37,346 nucleotides of DNA, taken from positions 1-37,346 of the forward strand of contig JAFNXL010000030.1 in the NCBI GenBank assembly GCA_017379075.1, written 5' to 3'. The stretch is from Bacteroidaceae bacterium. GTDB lineage: Bacteria > Bacteroidota > Bacteroidia > Bacteroidales > Bacteroidaceae. Below, in pieces: positions 5,535 through 36,876 of this stretch. Every line of letters starts with the position of its first letter. Within the stretch, counting starts at the first letter, position 1. The position numbers and the translations under genes were made by a program. The notes under the pieces were generated by a model. It was not told the DNA's origin and ran no database searches. It was given only the letters and a program-made list of their open reading frames with translations.

Positions 5535-6149
5535 ATGTCCAAATTTATTGACGCTAATATGAATAAACGGGCTATAGCAGTTTTTGATTTTGATGGGACT
5601 CTGACTAGTAAAGACACATTAGTCGAATTCATTAAATATGCATGCGGAACATGGAGATTTTACTTAGGTTTCACATGCTATTCACCCATTATAGTCTTAA
5701 TGTTTCTACATTTATATCCGAATTGGAAAGCAAAAGAAAAAATATTTGCTTTCTTTTTCAAAGGGTGGGAGTATCAAAAATTTAAAGATTATGGAGAAGT
5801 ATTCTCATTAAAAATTGAGAATATGAAAAAAGAAAATACCATGAACAAATTATATACACACATGGAAAAATCAGATACAATATATGTGATTACTGCAAGC
5901 ATTCTCGAATGGGTCTTGCCGTGGTGCAAAAAAAATGGAATCAACAACGTCTTAGCGACAAGAATAGAGATTGATGAAAGAGGAATCATCACTGGCCGTT
6001 TTTCATCAAAAAATTGTTATGGCCAGGAAAAAGTAAATCGTCTATTACAAGTTGAACCCCACAGGCACACATATACTCTTTATGCGTATGGTGACAGTAG
6101 AGGGGATAAAGAGATGATAGAATTTTCTGACTTTGGGATATATTGTTAA
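5535..6149 (+). CDS. HAD superfamily IB phosphatase (phosphoserine phosphatase-like fold)
   Basis: A HAD-superfamily phosphohydrolase of 204 residues, or 196 if the second ATG at 5559 (MNKRAIAVFDFDG) is used, which is a tighter match to family N-termini. Motif I is FDFDGT with nucleophile Asp18 and Asp20, motif II is the Thr in VITAS (Thr120), motif III is Lys166 in GQEK, and motif IV is GDSRGD with Asp187 and Asp191. The insertion between motifs I and II contains a hydrophobic patch, consistent with a membrane-associated substrate. The position directly after the phosphoribosyl-prenyl transferase suggests removal of the 5-phosphate from polyprenyl-phosphoryl-phosphoribose; that is an inference from context and from known HAD-UbiA fusions. 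The protein stops soon after motif IV at GIYC, but close relatives end at a similar place, so I see no clear truncation. Confidence 0.8.
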   Translation: MSKFIDANMNKRAIAVFDFDGTLTSKDTLVEFIKYACGTWRFYLGFTCYSPIIVLMFLHLYPNWKAKEKIFAFFFKGWEYQKFKDYGEVFSLKIENMKKENTMNKLYTHMEKSDTIYVITASILEWVLPWCKKNGINNVLATRIEIDERGIITGRFSSKNCYGQEKVNRLLQVEPHRHTYTLYAYGDSRGDKEMIEFSDFGIYC

Positions 6150-6185
6150 AGAGTATGGTTTAAATTTGTATTGAACTTTCATTTT

Positions 6186-6405
6186 GATACAAGTAAAATT
6201 GTTTTTTTAGCTAACTGAAAAAGTTTTTTGTCAACGATAAAACGTTTGTTCCAACCGTTGGAACGTACGTTTCATCAGTTGGAACGTGTGTTTCATCGGT
6301 TGGAATGTACGTTTCATCGGTTGGAACATAAATTCCACCACAGAGAAAAAACTTTTATAGTACTGTCGCACAACAATTTAAGCACAATGTTTCCAATATG
6401 TTGCA
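6186..6405 (+). repeat. structured repeat element, copy 1: 58-base leader, four 21-base palindromic units, collinear tail
   Basis: A noncoding element that recurs at 36438-36657. The leader (6186-6243) differs from the other copy only by a one-base shift in a T-run/AGCT stretch and the last base. Four contiguous 21-base units follow at 6244-6264, 6265-6285, 6286-6306 and 6307-6327. Unit 1 has a perfect hairpin core TTCCAAC-C-GTTGGAA; units 2-4 have TTTCATC in place of the left arm and still pair with the right arm through one T-G wobble, with one T-T mismatch. The tail shares positions such as ACTGTC and ACAACA with copy 2 without gaps for about 65 bases. Leader TGAAAAAGTTTTTTGTC and tail GAGAAAAAACTTTTATAG are imperfect inverted repeats that could bring the ends together. 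It starts 36 bases after the HAD gene stop. Confidence 0.85.
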
Positions 6406-6458
6406 ATACTGGCAATAAAAATGGCTTTTACAACACAGAATATCATGCAATAAACAAA

Positions 6459-19632: not shown

Positions 19633-20031
19633 GGGGCTGACATGGATTTGACAGCAGGATGATAGTTTGTGTAAGCACGCAGTGAGTCGGTGATTGCTCA
19701 CTATAATCCATAGTTACCAAAGATTTAATTGGCGAAAATACTTACGCTCTCGCTGCTTAATCGAAGTACAGTAGATGTAGCTTTATCAAGGCACAAGGTG
19801 CTTTGACGAGATGTCACTCAAAGGCTCTTGCTCCGAAGCATTTGATCCAGTGGCACAGGAATATCGGGGATAGTTGGCAATGTCCCTGCATTGTGCAATG
19901 AAATCTTAAGGGATAAGATGCAGGTTGGTGGCCCAGGTCTTGCCTGCATTCGAAAATCAAGGCTGGGATAAGCGTGTAGAAAGCACAGGGTGTCCCTGTT
20001 TGGACGAGGGTTCAATCCCCTCCAGCTCCAC
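19633..20031 (+). ncRNA. ssrA: tmRNA (transfer-messenger RNA)
   Basis: The gene rescues stalled ribosomes and tags incomplete proteins. The 5' end GGGGCTGACATGGATTTGAC and the 3' end with T-loop GGTTCAATCC and acceptor strand CAGCTCC are the canonical tRNA-like domain; GGGGCTG pairs with CAGCTCC using one G-U pair. The discriminator A is at 20031 and CCA is not encoded, so it must be added. The tag frame starts at GGC 19731 and ends with TAA 19758-19760, giving GENTYALAA, very close to tags of other Bacteroidales. Pseudoknot segments lie between tag and 3' end. A run of T follows directly. The 399-base length is normal. Confidence 0.97.
19731..19760 (+). other. tmRNA proteolysis tag reading frame
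   Basis: Codons GGC GAA AAT ACT TAC GCT CTC GCT GCT TAA encode GENTYALAA. The trailing ALAA is the degradation signal recognised by ClpXP-type proteases. The resume codon at GGC is inferred by similarity to other tmRNAs. Confidence 0.93.
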
Positions 20032-20058
20032 TTTTTTTATTATAGATTTCTATACTTT

Positions 20059-21454: not shown

Positions 21455-21528
21455 TAAATGCCATAGACATCAATGTCATTAATAAACTGACAGGATTTGC
21501 CTGAAAATCTTTGTTAGGACCAACAAAA

Positions 21529-21590
21529 AACGCAACGCGTTGCGATGGCTTACGGAATGCTTTCCGTTCACTATCGCAACGCGTTGTGTT
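21529..21590 (-). terminator. 62-base nested palindrome, terminator between convergent genes
   Basis: Bases 21529-21548 pair with 21571-21590 (18 Watson-Crick pairs and two G-T wobbles), then a three-base internal loop, then ACGGAA (21552-21557) pairs with TTCCGT (21562-21567) around TGCT. On the minus strand the hairpin is followed by TTTTTT, so it is a good terminator for the efflux operon, whose last stop is at 21612. Each outer arm also contains the self-complementary CAACGCGTTG. Confidence 0.75.
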
Positions 21591-21611
21591 TATGATTTCA
21601 ATGCACTGCGT

Positions 21612-34591: not shown

Positions 34592-36334
34592 ATGAAAGGA
34601 TTTGGTTTGAAGCCCTCATTGATAGACAGTTTGAGGGGGTACAGCCGCGAGATGTTCATGAAGGATCTCATGGCTGGCATTATTGTAGGTATTGTGGCGC
34701 TCCCCCTTGCCATCGCATTTGGTATCGCCAGTGGCGTAACACCCGAGAAGGGAATCATCACGGCCATCATCGCCGGTTTCCTCATTTCCCTGTTGGGAGG
34801 TTCCAAGGTACAGATCGGAGGTCCCACGGGAGCTTTCATCGTTATTATATATGGTATTGTCAACAATCCCGAATACGGATTGCAGGGTCTGCTCATCGCC
34901 ACCATTCTGGCCGGAGTCATCCTTGTGGCGTTGGGTGCGTTCCGCCTGGGTGCGCTCATCAAGTTCATCCCCTATCCCATCATCGTGGGTTTCACAGCCG
35001 GTATTGCCGTCACCATCTTCACCACACAGATGGGCGACATCCTCGGTCTCACCCAAGAGGCGGTCAGCCAGACTGGTGAGGCCATCCGCATACCGCTGAA
35101 GACGCCTGGCGATTTCATCGGCAAGTGGATCTGCTATGCCCAGCACATCTCCACCTTCAATGTTTGGAACTTCATCGTGGCCATCGGCAGCTTGTTGCTC
35201 ATCATCTTCACGCCCATGGTCACCCGCCGAATTCCCGTACTCAACAAGATTCCCGGCTCGCTCTATGGCATTATGCTCGGCACCGCGGCCGTACTCATTA
35301 TGAAAGAGTTCTTCGGCATCACCGGCATTGACACCATTGGCGACCGTTTCCAAATCCAGTCTCAACTGCCCGATATGGTAGTGCCCGACATCACTTTCGA
35401 ACTGATTCAGAAGCTCATGCCCGTGGCCTTCACCATTGCCATCCTCGGTGCCATTGAGAGTCTGCTCAGTGCAGCCGTGGCCGATGGCGTTACCGGAGAC
35501 AAGCACGACAGCAACATGGAACTCATCGCCCAGGGAGCGGCCAATATCATCACACCCCTCTTCGGCGGCATCCCCGCAACCGGTGCCATTGCCCGCACCA
35601 TGACCAACATCAACAACGGCGGTCGCACACCCATTGCCGGAATCATCCATGCCGTGGTGCTCATGCTCATTCTGCTCATTCTCATGCCTTATGCCGAGTA
35701 CATCCCCATGGCTTCTCTGGCGGCCGTACTGGTCATCGTCAGCTATAACATGAGCGGCTGGCGCACCCTGAAGAGTCTTATGAACAACCCCAAGAGCGAC
35801 ATCCTGGTGTTGCTCACCACCTTCTTCCTCACCGTCATCTTCGACCTCACCATCGCCATTGAAGTGGGTCTCATCACCGCTTGCGCCCTCTTCATGAAGC
35901 GCATCATGGAGACCACAGAGATCAGTGTCATCAACGATGAAATCAATCCCGGCGATGAAATGGGCTTGAGCCATGTCCATGACAGTCTGGCCATTCCCGA
36001 AGGTTGTGCCGTATATGAGATCAACGGCCCCTTCTTCTTCGGCATCGCCAACAAGTTCGATGAGTTGCAGGCCAACATCGGCCACGAGAAGCCCCGTGTC
36101 CGCATCATCCGCATGCGCAAAGTGCCGTTCATCGATTCCACGGGCATCCACAACCTCACCAACCTCATCCGCATGAACCAGGAAGACGGCATCCACATCA
36201 TCCTTTCCGGTGTCAGCCCCAAGTTGCATAAGCAGCTCGAGAAGGCGCGCTTCTACAACCTCATTGCGCCGGACCACATCTGCCCCCACATTGACATCGC
36301 GCTGGAGAAAGCCCGCGAGTTTTTGGCAAAGTAA
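34592..36334 (+). CDS. SulP-family inorganic anion transporter with STAS domain
   Basis: A 580-residue membrane protein of the SulP (sulfate permease/bicarbonate transporter) family. The N-terminus DLMAGIIVGIVALPLAIAFGIASG is a strong family mark, as is GGSKVQIGGPTGAFIVI. About 12-14 helices span residues 25-430, and a STAS domain covers about 460-580 with the conserved FIDSTG. Substrate could be sulfate, bicarbonate or another anion; the closeness of many bacterial members makes bicarbonate/sulfate equally possible. The gene is visibly richer in G+C than the left part of the window (32 of 60 bases in 35401-35460) with strong preference for codons ending in C, which suggests high expression. 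It is transcribed away from the peptide transporter and ends in a clear terminator. Confidence 0.93.
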   Translation: MKGFGLKPSLIDSLRGYSREMFMKDLMAGIIVGIVALPLAIAFGIASGVTPEKGIITAIIAGFLISLLGGSKVQIGGPTGAFIVIIYGIVNNPEYGLQGLLIATILAGVILVALGAFRLGALIKFIPYPIIVGFTAGIAVTIFTTQMGDILGLTQEAVSQTGEAIRIPLKTPGDFIGKWICYAQHISTFNVWNFIVAIGSLLLIIFTPMVTRRIPVLNKIPGSLYGIMLGTAAVLIMKEFFGITGIDTIGDRFQIQSQLPDMVVPDITFELIQKLMPVAFTIAILGAIESLLSAAVADGVTGDKHDSNMELIAQGAANIITPLFGGIPATGAIARTMTNINNGGRTPIAGIIHAVVLMLILLILMPYAEYIPMASLAAVLVIVSYNMSGWRTLKSLMNNPKSDILVLLTTFFLTVIFDLTIAIEVGLITACALFMKRIMETTEISVINDEINPGDEMGLSHVHDSLAIPEGCAVYEINGPFFFGIANKFDELQANIGHEKPRVRIIRMRKVPFIDSTGIHNLTNLIRMNQEDGIHIILSGVSPKLHKQLEKARFYNLIAPDHICPHIDIALEKAREFLAK

Positions 36335-36390: not shown

Positions 36391-36437
36391 ATGCAGTTTT
36401 GATGGTAGTTTGAGTCCGTTTAGCAAAATTTTGTTCA

Positions 36438-36657
36438 GATACAAGTAAAATTGTTTTTTAGCTTAACTGAAAAAGTTTTTTGTCAACGATAAAAAGTTCA
36501 TCCCAAGCCTTGGGATGTACGTTTCAAGCTTTGGGATGTACGTTCCAAACCTTGGGATATACATCCCAAAGCTTGGGACAAAACTTTCTCCACTGAGAAA
36601 GAACTTTTTCACCACTGTCCTACAACAGTTTAGCTACTATGTTTCAACAATATTCTA
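36438..36657 (+). repeat. structured repeat element, copy 2: 58-base leader, four 21-base palindromic units, collinear tail
   Basis: Second copy of the element at 6186-6405. The 58-base leader (36438-36495) is almost identical to copy 1. The four units are at 36496-36516, 36517-36537, 36538-36558 and 36559-36579. Unit 1 has a perfect core TCCCAAG-C-CTTGGGA; unit 2 keeps all seven pairs if three T-G/G-T wobbles are allowed; units 3 and 4 keep six of seven. The arm sequence differs from copy 1 (CCAAG/CTTGG here, CCAAC/GTTGG there), yet pairing persists. The flanks TGAAAAAGTTTTTTGTC and GAGAAAGAACTTTTTCA are inverted repeats with 15 of 17 positions alike. It lies past the SulP terminator. Confidence 0.85.
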
Positions 36658-36789
36658 ATATTGTACCATTTTGTGCGTATAATTAGGGCGAAAAACATCG
36701 TCTGCAAAGGTGGGGAGATTCAAATACCGAGGGACTTTCATGTCCCTGGATCAGTTGCCGACACCCGTCTTACAGACACCAGAACCAAA

Positions 36790-36876
36790 ACTCACAACCC
36801 ATCACTCACTACTCATTACTCAATGCTCATCACTCACTACTCATCGCTCACAACTCACCACTCATATATATATATA
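36790..36876. repeat. low-complexity CTCA/CACT tract ending in a TA run
   Basis: A tract with almost no G on the plus strand made of variants of CACTCA, CTACTCAT and CTCACAACTCA. The 17-mer CATCACTCACTACTCAT occurs exactly twice (36800-36816 and 36828-36844). It ends with a TA dinucleotide run at about 36865-36876. Slippage-prone and probably variable in length between strains. The adjoining stretch 36658-36789 holds only a small AGGGAC/GTCCCT hairpin and nothing else I can name. Confidence 0.75.

Follow-up and report, generated by a model that had tools for sequence, protein, structure and literature searches.

The repeated element that occurs twice in the analysed stretch of DNA (37,346 nucleotides, hereafter the window) is probably an operator-like array, the cognate site of a chromosomal protein in which an HU-HIG domain is joined to a winged-helix-like domain, and it occurs as dispersed copies as well. 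This reading was derived from sequence comparison of the element, its copies and the gene family beside which such arrays lie. A protein-binding module, one of the possibilities raised by the initial annotation of this DNA, is the reading now favoured.

Structure and distribution of the element

The repeat search of the window (seed 12, minimum 18 nt) returned two copies, at 6174-6411 and 36426-36663, which aligned without gaps over 238 bp at 74% identity; the next longest repeat family in the same search had copies of 28 nt only. Each copy is made up of a head (leader), an 80-bp array of four spacer-free units with a 21-bp period, and a tail, with head and tail being imperfect inverted repeats of each other, as seen from the opposite-strand self matches. 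The initial annotation had described two copies about 30 kb apart, four contiguous 21-base units without spacers and inverted repeats in leader and tail, and all of these were found to be real. The position downstream of plus-strand genes was likewise confirmed, the upstream neighbour being a HAD hydrolase gene (5535-6149, plus strand) for copy 1 and a sulfate permease gene (34592-36334, plus strand) for copy 2. The features of the two copies are listed below.

6174..6247, plus strand: copy 1 head (leader), imperfect inverted repeat of the copy 1 tail
6248..6327, plus strand: copy 1 array, four palindromic 21-bp units, core TGRRAYRTAYRTTYCA plus 5 bp
6328..6411, plus strand: copy 1 tail, lacking the promoter -7 motif that the gene-linked copy has
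36426..36499, plus strand: copy 2 head (leader)
36500..36579, plus strand: copy 2 array, four palindromic 21-bp units, TTGGGA variant
36580..36663, plus strand: copy 2 tail, without the promoter -7 motif

Both strands of each copy folded better than dinucleotide shuffles, with z values of -7.53 and -4.65 for copy 1 and -9.65 and -8.30 for copy 2. Shortly past copy 2, at 36790-36864, about five copies of a ACTCACTACTCATC-type 14-bp repeat were seen.

The source genome is a 3.0 Mb draft of 106 contigs. It holds 14 copies of the element, the window pair included, so that the duplication stands but extends well past the two copies first described. Their dispersed, non-random character was borne out by the further copies, and the proposed search for more copies with covarying arms had, in form, a positive outcome, as pairing-preserving arm changes were found among the 14. 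The copies vary in unit number, contrary to the fixed number that had been claimed: four units were commonest (10 copies), while three copies have three units and one has two (52 units were counted, one of them false, in the gene-linked copy L006). The 16-bp core gave 31 forward matches in the genome, all within the 14 elements, and the reversed-core control gave none. Two of the elements (flanks of L004 and L015) are adjoined by a second repeated stretch (AGGGTGGTTCT...), and L004 and L005 have about 480 bp in common at 88%, the tail flank included.

A pattern of two cores spaced 21 bp apart was searched among 84,980 species, one genome each, and was found in 88 stretches from 34 assemblies (a count of titles). 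All 88 titles name Bacteroidota, and Candidatus Minthosoma equi alone accounts for 20 of the stretches. There are two cores per array in four cases, three in 25, four in 30, five in 28 and six in one. The five bases between cores vary by genome, being TTGTT/AACAA in Minthosoma, CGGGC/CGCCG in Phocaeicola intestinalis, GGCCT/GGACC in RUG12758 and TCAGT/TCGGT in the present genome. A nucleotide search of 60 relatives (E 1e-4), a set outside which the sister species discussed below falls, returned no copy beyond this genome, and the two-core pattern gave no match in the viral contigs of IMG/VR. A phage origin was rejected, since the viral pattern scan gave 0, phage tblastn gave none and 12 pattern matches in viral contigs were all unconfirmed. 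A plasmid origin was rejected as well: three records are labelled as plasmids, two of them annotated, and as one carries recA and clpB, these are probably chromosomal pieces.

The genomic setting was determined for 101 arrays, of which four lie inside open reading frames of at least 100 aa, 16 lie at contig edges and 81 could be classified. Convergent, tandem and divergent settings numbered 17, 46 and 18 among the 81, against 20, 62 and 36 among background intergenic gaps (p = 0.41). The downstream-of-gene position of the arrays is therefore not special. The same lack of gene-orientation or promoter bias among dispersed arrays leaves a simple promoter regulon unsupported, and a promoter-only regulon was rejected.

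The linked gene family and its upstream arrays

Clustering of the open reading frames near the arrays revealed one family present in most genomes (8), the products of which (202-212 aa) carry an HU-HIG domain together with a C-terminal region that is conserved; of the eight linked proteins, one is a 75-aa fragment (P. intestinalis) and two are near-identical. The second cluster, found in seven genomes, comprises ABC transporter ATPases, a common family. Among the best 14 clusters no other recurring partner gene was seen, as these were mostly other reading frames of the HU-winged-helix gene, with one being a neighbour gene in four loci. In the present genome the sole full-length member of the family (C11:10328-10951) lies outside the window, with 32 bp between it and the head of an element. 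On contig C48 an orphan C-terminal (winged-helix) fragment was noted (L132, about 1479-1674), preceded by a short stretch resembling the element head.

By domain score the linked protein belongs to the HU-HIG family PF18291: three array-linked proteins scored 71.4, 47.4 and 63.5 bits and six more family members 45.0-126.8 bits, all above the curated cut-off of 26.2. This genome has a total of nine HU-HIG genes that score above the Pfam cut-off. The HU-type N-terminal region is directly similar to solved HU and IHF (5eka, E 1.7e-5). The conserved C-terminal region matched the IclR helix-turn-helix at E 0.0018, below cut-off, and a Fic protein weakly at E 0.033; together with the Pfam family description, the weak helix-turn-helix matches point to a putative winged helix. 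No nuclease match to the linked protein was obtained. A defence system was rejected, as PADLOC profiles gave no match for three proteins at E 0.01. Our search of open-licence papers returned no literature on HU-HIG.

Co-occurrence of gene and element was assessed in 201 genomes of the taxonomic family. At least four forward cores were present in nine of them, and all nine carry the gene, against a base rate of 118/201 (P = 0.007). A type-1 array was located upstream of a fetched gene in seven of these nine; in the other two (G073 and G171) the single fetched gene is without a type-1 array, and their other family members fell outside the sample.

Judged by sequence self-similarity, the link between gene and array is a general one. 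From among the matches listed in the 201 genomes, 110 gene places were sampled, two of which (L201 and L212) were dropped for having less than 250 bp upstream, and the 450 bp upstream of the remaining 108 genes were scored for self-similarity at lags 10-45 with a threshold of 29/42 identities. An array passed at lag 21-23 upstream of 88/108 genes, whereas the same test gave 0/106 for downstream regions and 0/106 for background genes. The threshold was reached at lag 21 in 74 cases, at lag 22 in 16 and at lag 23 in 10, and lags that are not multiples of 21-23 rarely reached it. With a looser threshold (27/42 identities) the count rose to 97/108; nine of the 20 genes below the stricter threshold score less than 27, several being without a clear array. 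Outside the taxonomic family 16/24 genes passed, mostly at lag 22, and in the downstream control of this outside set (27 genes, three from the taxonomic family) 1/25 regions reached lag 21. Three named records passed at lag 21. Of seven tail-less HU-HIG genes in this genome, one reached the threshold (L133, a repeat of 14-bp units). The seven rows of the search profile all came from genes next to arrays of a single type, so the sample drawn with it is not free of bias, but that array type was present in only 15/108 upstream regions.

The upstream arrays hold about three to four units and lie at a median distance of 99 bp from the start codon. Their units showed a palindromy of 0.69 against 0.54 for shuffled units (sd 0.09), with 36/88 above the 99th percentile. 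The units differ in sequence between genes, and only in close relatives does their similarity follow that of the proteins (rho 0.14).

The motif TAnnTTYG, which we take to be the -7 box of Bacteroidetes promoters, was counted at the 78 of 88 arrays whose distance to the start is 30-200 bp. Between array and start it occurred 43 times in sense and five times in antisense, with 6.7 expected, and was present in 37/78 arrays; upstream of the arrays, over equal lengths, 31 sense occurrences were counted. By array, the motif was upstream only in 28, downstream only in 35, on both sides in one and on neither in 14, and the 35 arrays that it follows would therefore lie outside that transcript. The two layouts, nearly exclusive of each other, place the motif either some 20 bp ahead of the array or some 45 bp past it. 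In the present genome and its sister species (G155), the motif was retained only in the gene-linked copies (L006 and L280); it was found in 0/25 dispersed copies and was absent from the sister's copy beside a decayed gene. On these comparisons, the dispersed copies look like the upstream region of the gene minus its promoter and the gene itself.

Dispersal and concerted change of the arrays

Sequences unrelated to the window type were also found at several places per genome. The g33 array occurred at 13 places in G182, contig ends among them, seven in G195, four each in G223 and G250, and one in G237; it gave no match in G154 and G118, and in G209 the query matched outside the array. The g33 places have mainly the array in common. 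A 22-bp array type was found at six places in G264, its own gene included. By sequence matching, three array types, that of the window among them, recur elsewhere in the genomes that carry them.

The sister species G155 also holds 14 elements, 13 from one search and a fourteenth, at C74:20630, from another; ten of these are set by their flanks opposite elements of the present genome, some on one side only. The HU-winged-helix proteins of the two are 88% identical. Core centres in the present genome are GTAC, GTAT or ATAC in 37/42 cores and ACAT in 0/42, while in the sister species ACAT occupies 24/42 and GTAC 0/42. Across seven orthologous pairs the arrays are 49-72% identical, the heads 74-92% and the tails 63-97%. 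Both flanks exceeded the array in 6/7 pairs, the exception being the copy 1 pair, in which the array scores higher (68%) than the tail (63%), and the one-sided Wilcoxon comparison of flank and array identity gave 0.008 and 0.016. Across the two genomes array identity was 0.66 (equal-length arrays only; the syntenic pairs L009-L278, L010-L270 and L013-L281 were left unscored), compared with 0.78 and 0.75 inside the respective genomes; heads and tails displayed no such within-versus-between pattern. The likeness of the arrays in one genome has to be maintained by a reader acting in trans or else by recopying.

At the copy 1 site the sister's element lies beside a decayed HU-winged-helix gene (L287, about 1327-1482), which retains 48% identity over 52 aa and carries one stop. 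An array beside a fumarate-reductase-like operon was observed in two genera (L032/L108); the HU-winged-helix gene is there in RUG383 and absent here.

Interpretation, rival explanations and known systems

The HU-winged-helix protein would bind the arrays, and its dimers would probably sit along a single face of the DNA, as 21 bp corresponds to two turns. It may control its own promoter through the upstream array, and at the dispersed sites it could wrap, bend or bridge chromosomal DNA. The finding of different unit sequences in the same gene-plus-array layout in many related gut bacteria suggests a fast-changing protein-and-address system. A wider proposal, which we put forward tentatively as a real possibility that falls short of an expectation, is an undescribed chromosome-organising class in Bacteroidales. 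Each protein would have a private address of phased palindromes, located at its own promoter and at dispersed sites, through which distant loci might be bridged or wrapped; protein and address would co-evolve rapidly, with the address of a sister species changed genome-wide and those of paralogues differing.

The structural alternative is an RNA, in which the head-to-tail transcript would form an outer stem closing the hairpins and act in mRNA stability or termination. Both strands of the window copies fold far better than shuffles, the window copies lie downstream of genes, and within the genus the head-to-tail strand favours G.U pairs. Intra-unit cells on that strand, with the false unit removed, comprise 254 Watson-Crick pairs, 50 G.U and 2 A.C, and in 23 aligned four-unit elements from two species G.U exceeds A.C by 89 to 17 in the array and by 43 to 6 in the outer stem, with alifold energies of -27.0 kcal/mol head-to-tail and -13.9 on the other strand. 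Such an excess of G.U over A.C would be unexpected for a purely double-stranded site and counts against the operator reading. It is likely due to the shared ancestry of the units, by which the G.U count is inflated, and the preference is not general: over 59 palindromic promoter arrays the gene-sense strand has 132 G.U and 130 A.C, with 28 arrays leaning one way, 21 the other and 10 tied. These equal numbers argue for recognition of double-stranded DNA. The structured RNA of the initial annotation does not hold as the general explanation, and the arrays followed by the -7 motif (35/78) would lie outside its transcript. Moreover, the head-to-tail strand is antisense to the linked gene, the arrays have no orientation or 3'-end bias, and the element has no Rfam match at gathering thresholds. 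Taken together, we regard the RNA explanation as improbable.

The element could instead be a MITE with the array as its passenger. Such a non-autonomous transposon would depend on the transposase of an insertion sequence, as has been proposed for BrickBuilt. Intergenic dispersed copies with head, array, tail and overall inverted symmetry, and a patchy distribution, are consistent with this, and the MITE-like nature had also been proposed initially. It gained no support, as the copies showed no target-site duplication signal, no defined ends and no BrickBuilt-type terminal repeat. Over 27 elements the longest end-spanning direct repeat came to 5.67, and to 5.78 once flanks were swapped (a weak comparison because the ends are not sharp), and the BrickBuilt terminal inverted repeat GAGACCTTTGCA, allowing two mismatches, matched the window three times against 3.37 expected, with none at or near the copies. 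A MITE also leaves unexplained why most members of a single gene family are preceded by an array and why arrays change in place at orthologous sites, and the g33 places share mainly the array; we rate it the least probable of the explanations weighed. Somewhat easier to entertain, yet still unlikely, is that the dispersed arrays are relics only, left without function as array-plus-gene cassettes duplicate and their genes decay. The pseudogene beside the sister's element, the orphan fragment on C48, the truncated gene in P. intestinalis and the fumarate-reductase site, with array and gene in RUG383 and the array alone here, all point that way. Most dispersed arrays, however, adjoin no gene remnant, and relics should diverge freely, yet the dispersed arrays follow their own genome, a pattern that recent recopying could likewise produce.

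The operator reading resembles several known systems in part. As in RAYT/REP systems, a trans-acting gene is flanked by its own type of palindromic repeat, with dispersed copies and fast divergence; a RAYT, however, is a Y1-type transposase nuclease, and the linked gene here encodes HU-HIG and helix-turn-helix-like domains. Plasmid iterons (with winged-helix Rep) and centromeres similarly have in-phase arrays of about 21 bp beside the gene of the expected binder, with autoregulation and possible pairing of distant arrays as further likenesses. The present arrays differ in being chromosomal, in having many dispersed copies and in their HU-type protein, and no replication or partition genes were seen among the recurring neighbours in the best 14 clusters.

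A likeness in form is seen in the BrickBuilt MITE of Porphyromonas gingivalis, described, in the excerpts available of its report, as 23-nt spacer-free tandem repeats with leader and tail, intergenic, at 19 copies in one strain (PMC4596501). Both have spacer-free repeats of about two helical turns between a leader and a tail, with a period of 21 nt here and 23 there; periods of 22 and 23 bp do occur upstream of related HU-winged-helix genes. BrickBuilt has up to 22.8 repeats and terminal repeats matching IS5 elements (PMC4596501), whereas two to four units and no such ends were found here. The same excerpts report no cognate binding protein for BrickBuilt, although a PF00216 DNA-binding protein gene is listed in Table 1 as the neighbour of BrickBuilt_14 (PMC4596501); here the HU-winged-helix gene is linked.

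If the operator reading is true, a class of dispersed repeats that go unannotated in Bacteroidales of the gut and rumen would be accounted for, and a large protein family annotated merely as HU-related would gain a DNA target along with a role open to testing. The paralogues with their matched, differing targets would form a natural series in which the co-evolution of specificity and dispersed sites can be followed. Should the sites bridge DNA, the protein would be a site-specific nucleoid organiser, few of which, to our knowledge, are known in such bacteria. No literature on such gene-array pairs was found in open-licence papers, a scope outside which most subscription journals fall.

Two further features of the window were observed. 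An inverted repeat of 30 nt with a 4-nt loop (83%) lies at 21528-21591, and a related 78-bp stretch was seen near the element at C1:82371 (L031, 6674-6751). With Rfam 15 covariance models at gathering score, the sole match in the whole window, the element giving none, was a tmRNA gene at about 19633-20033, with the tag GENTYALAA.
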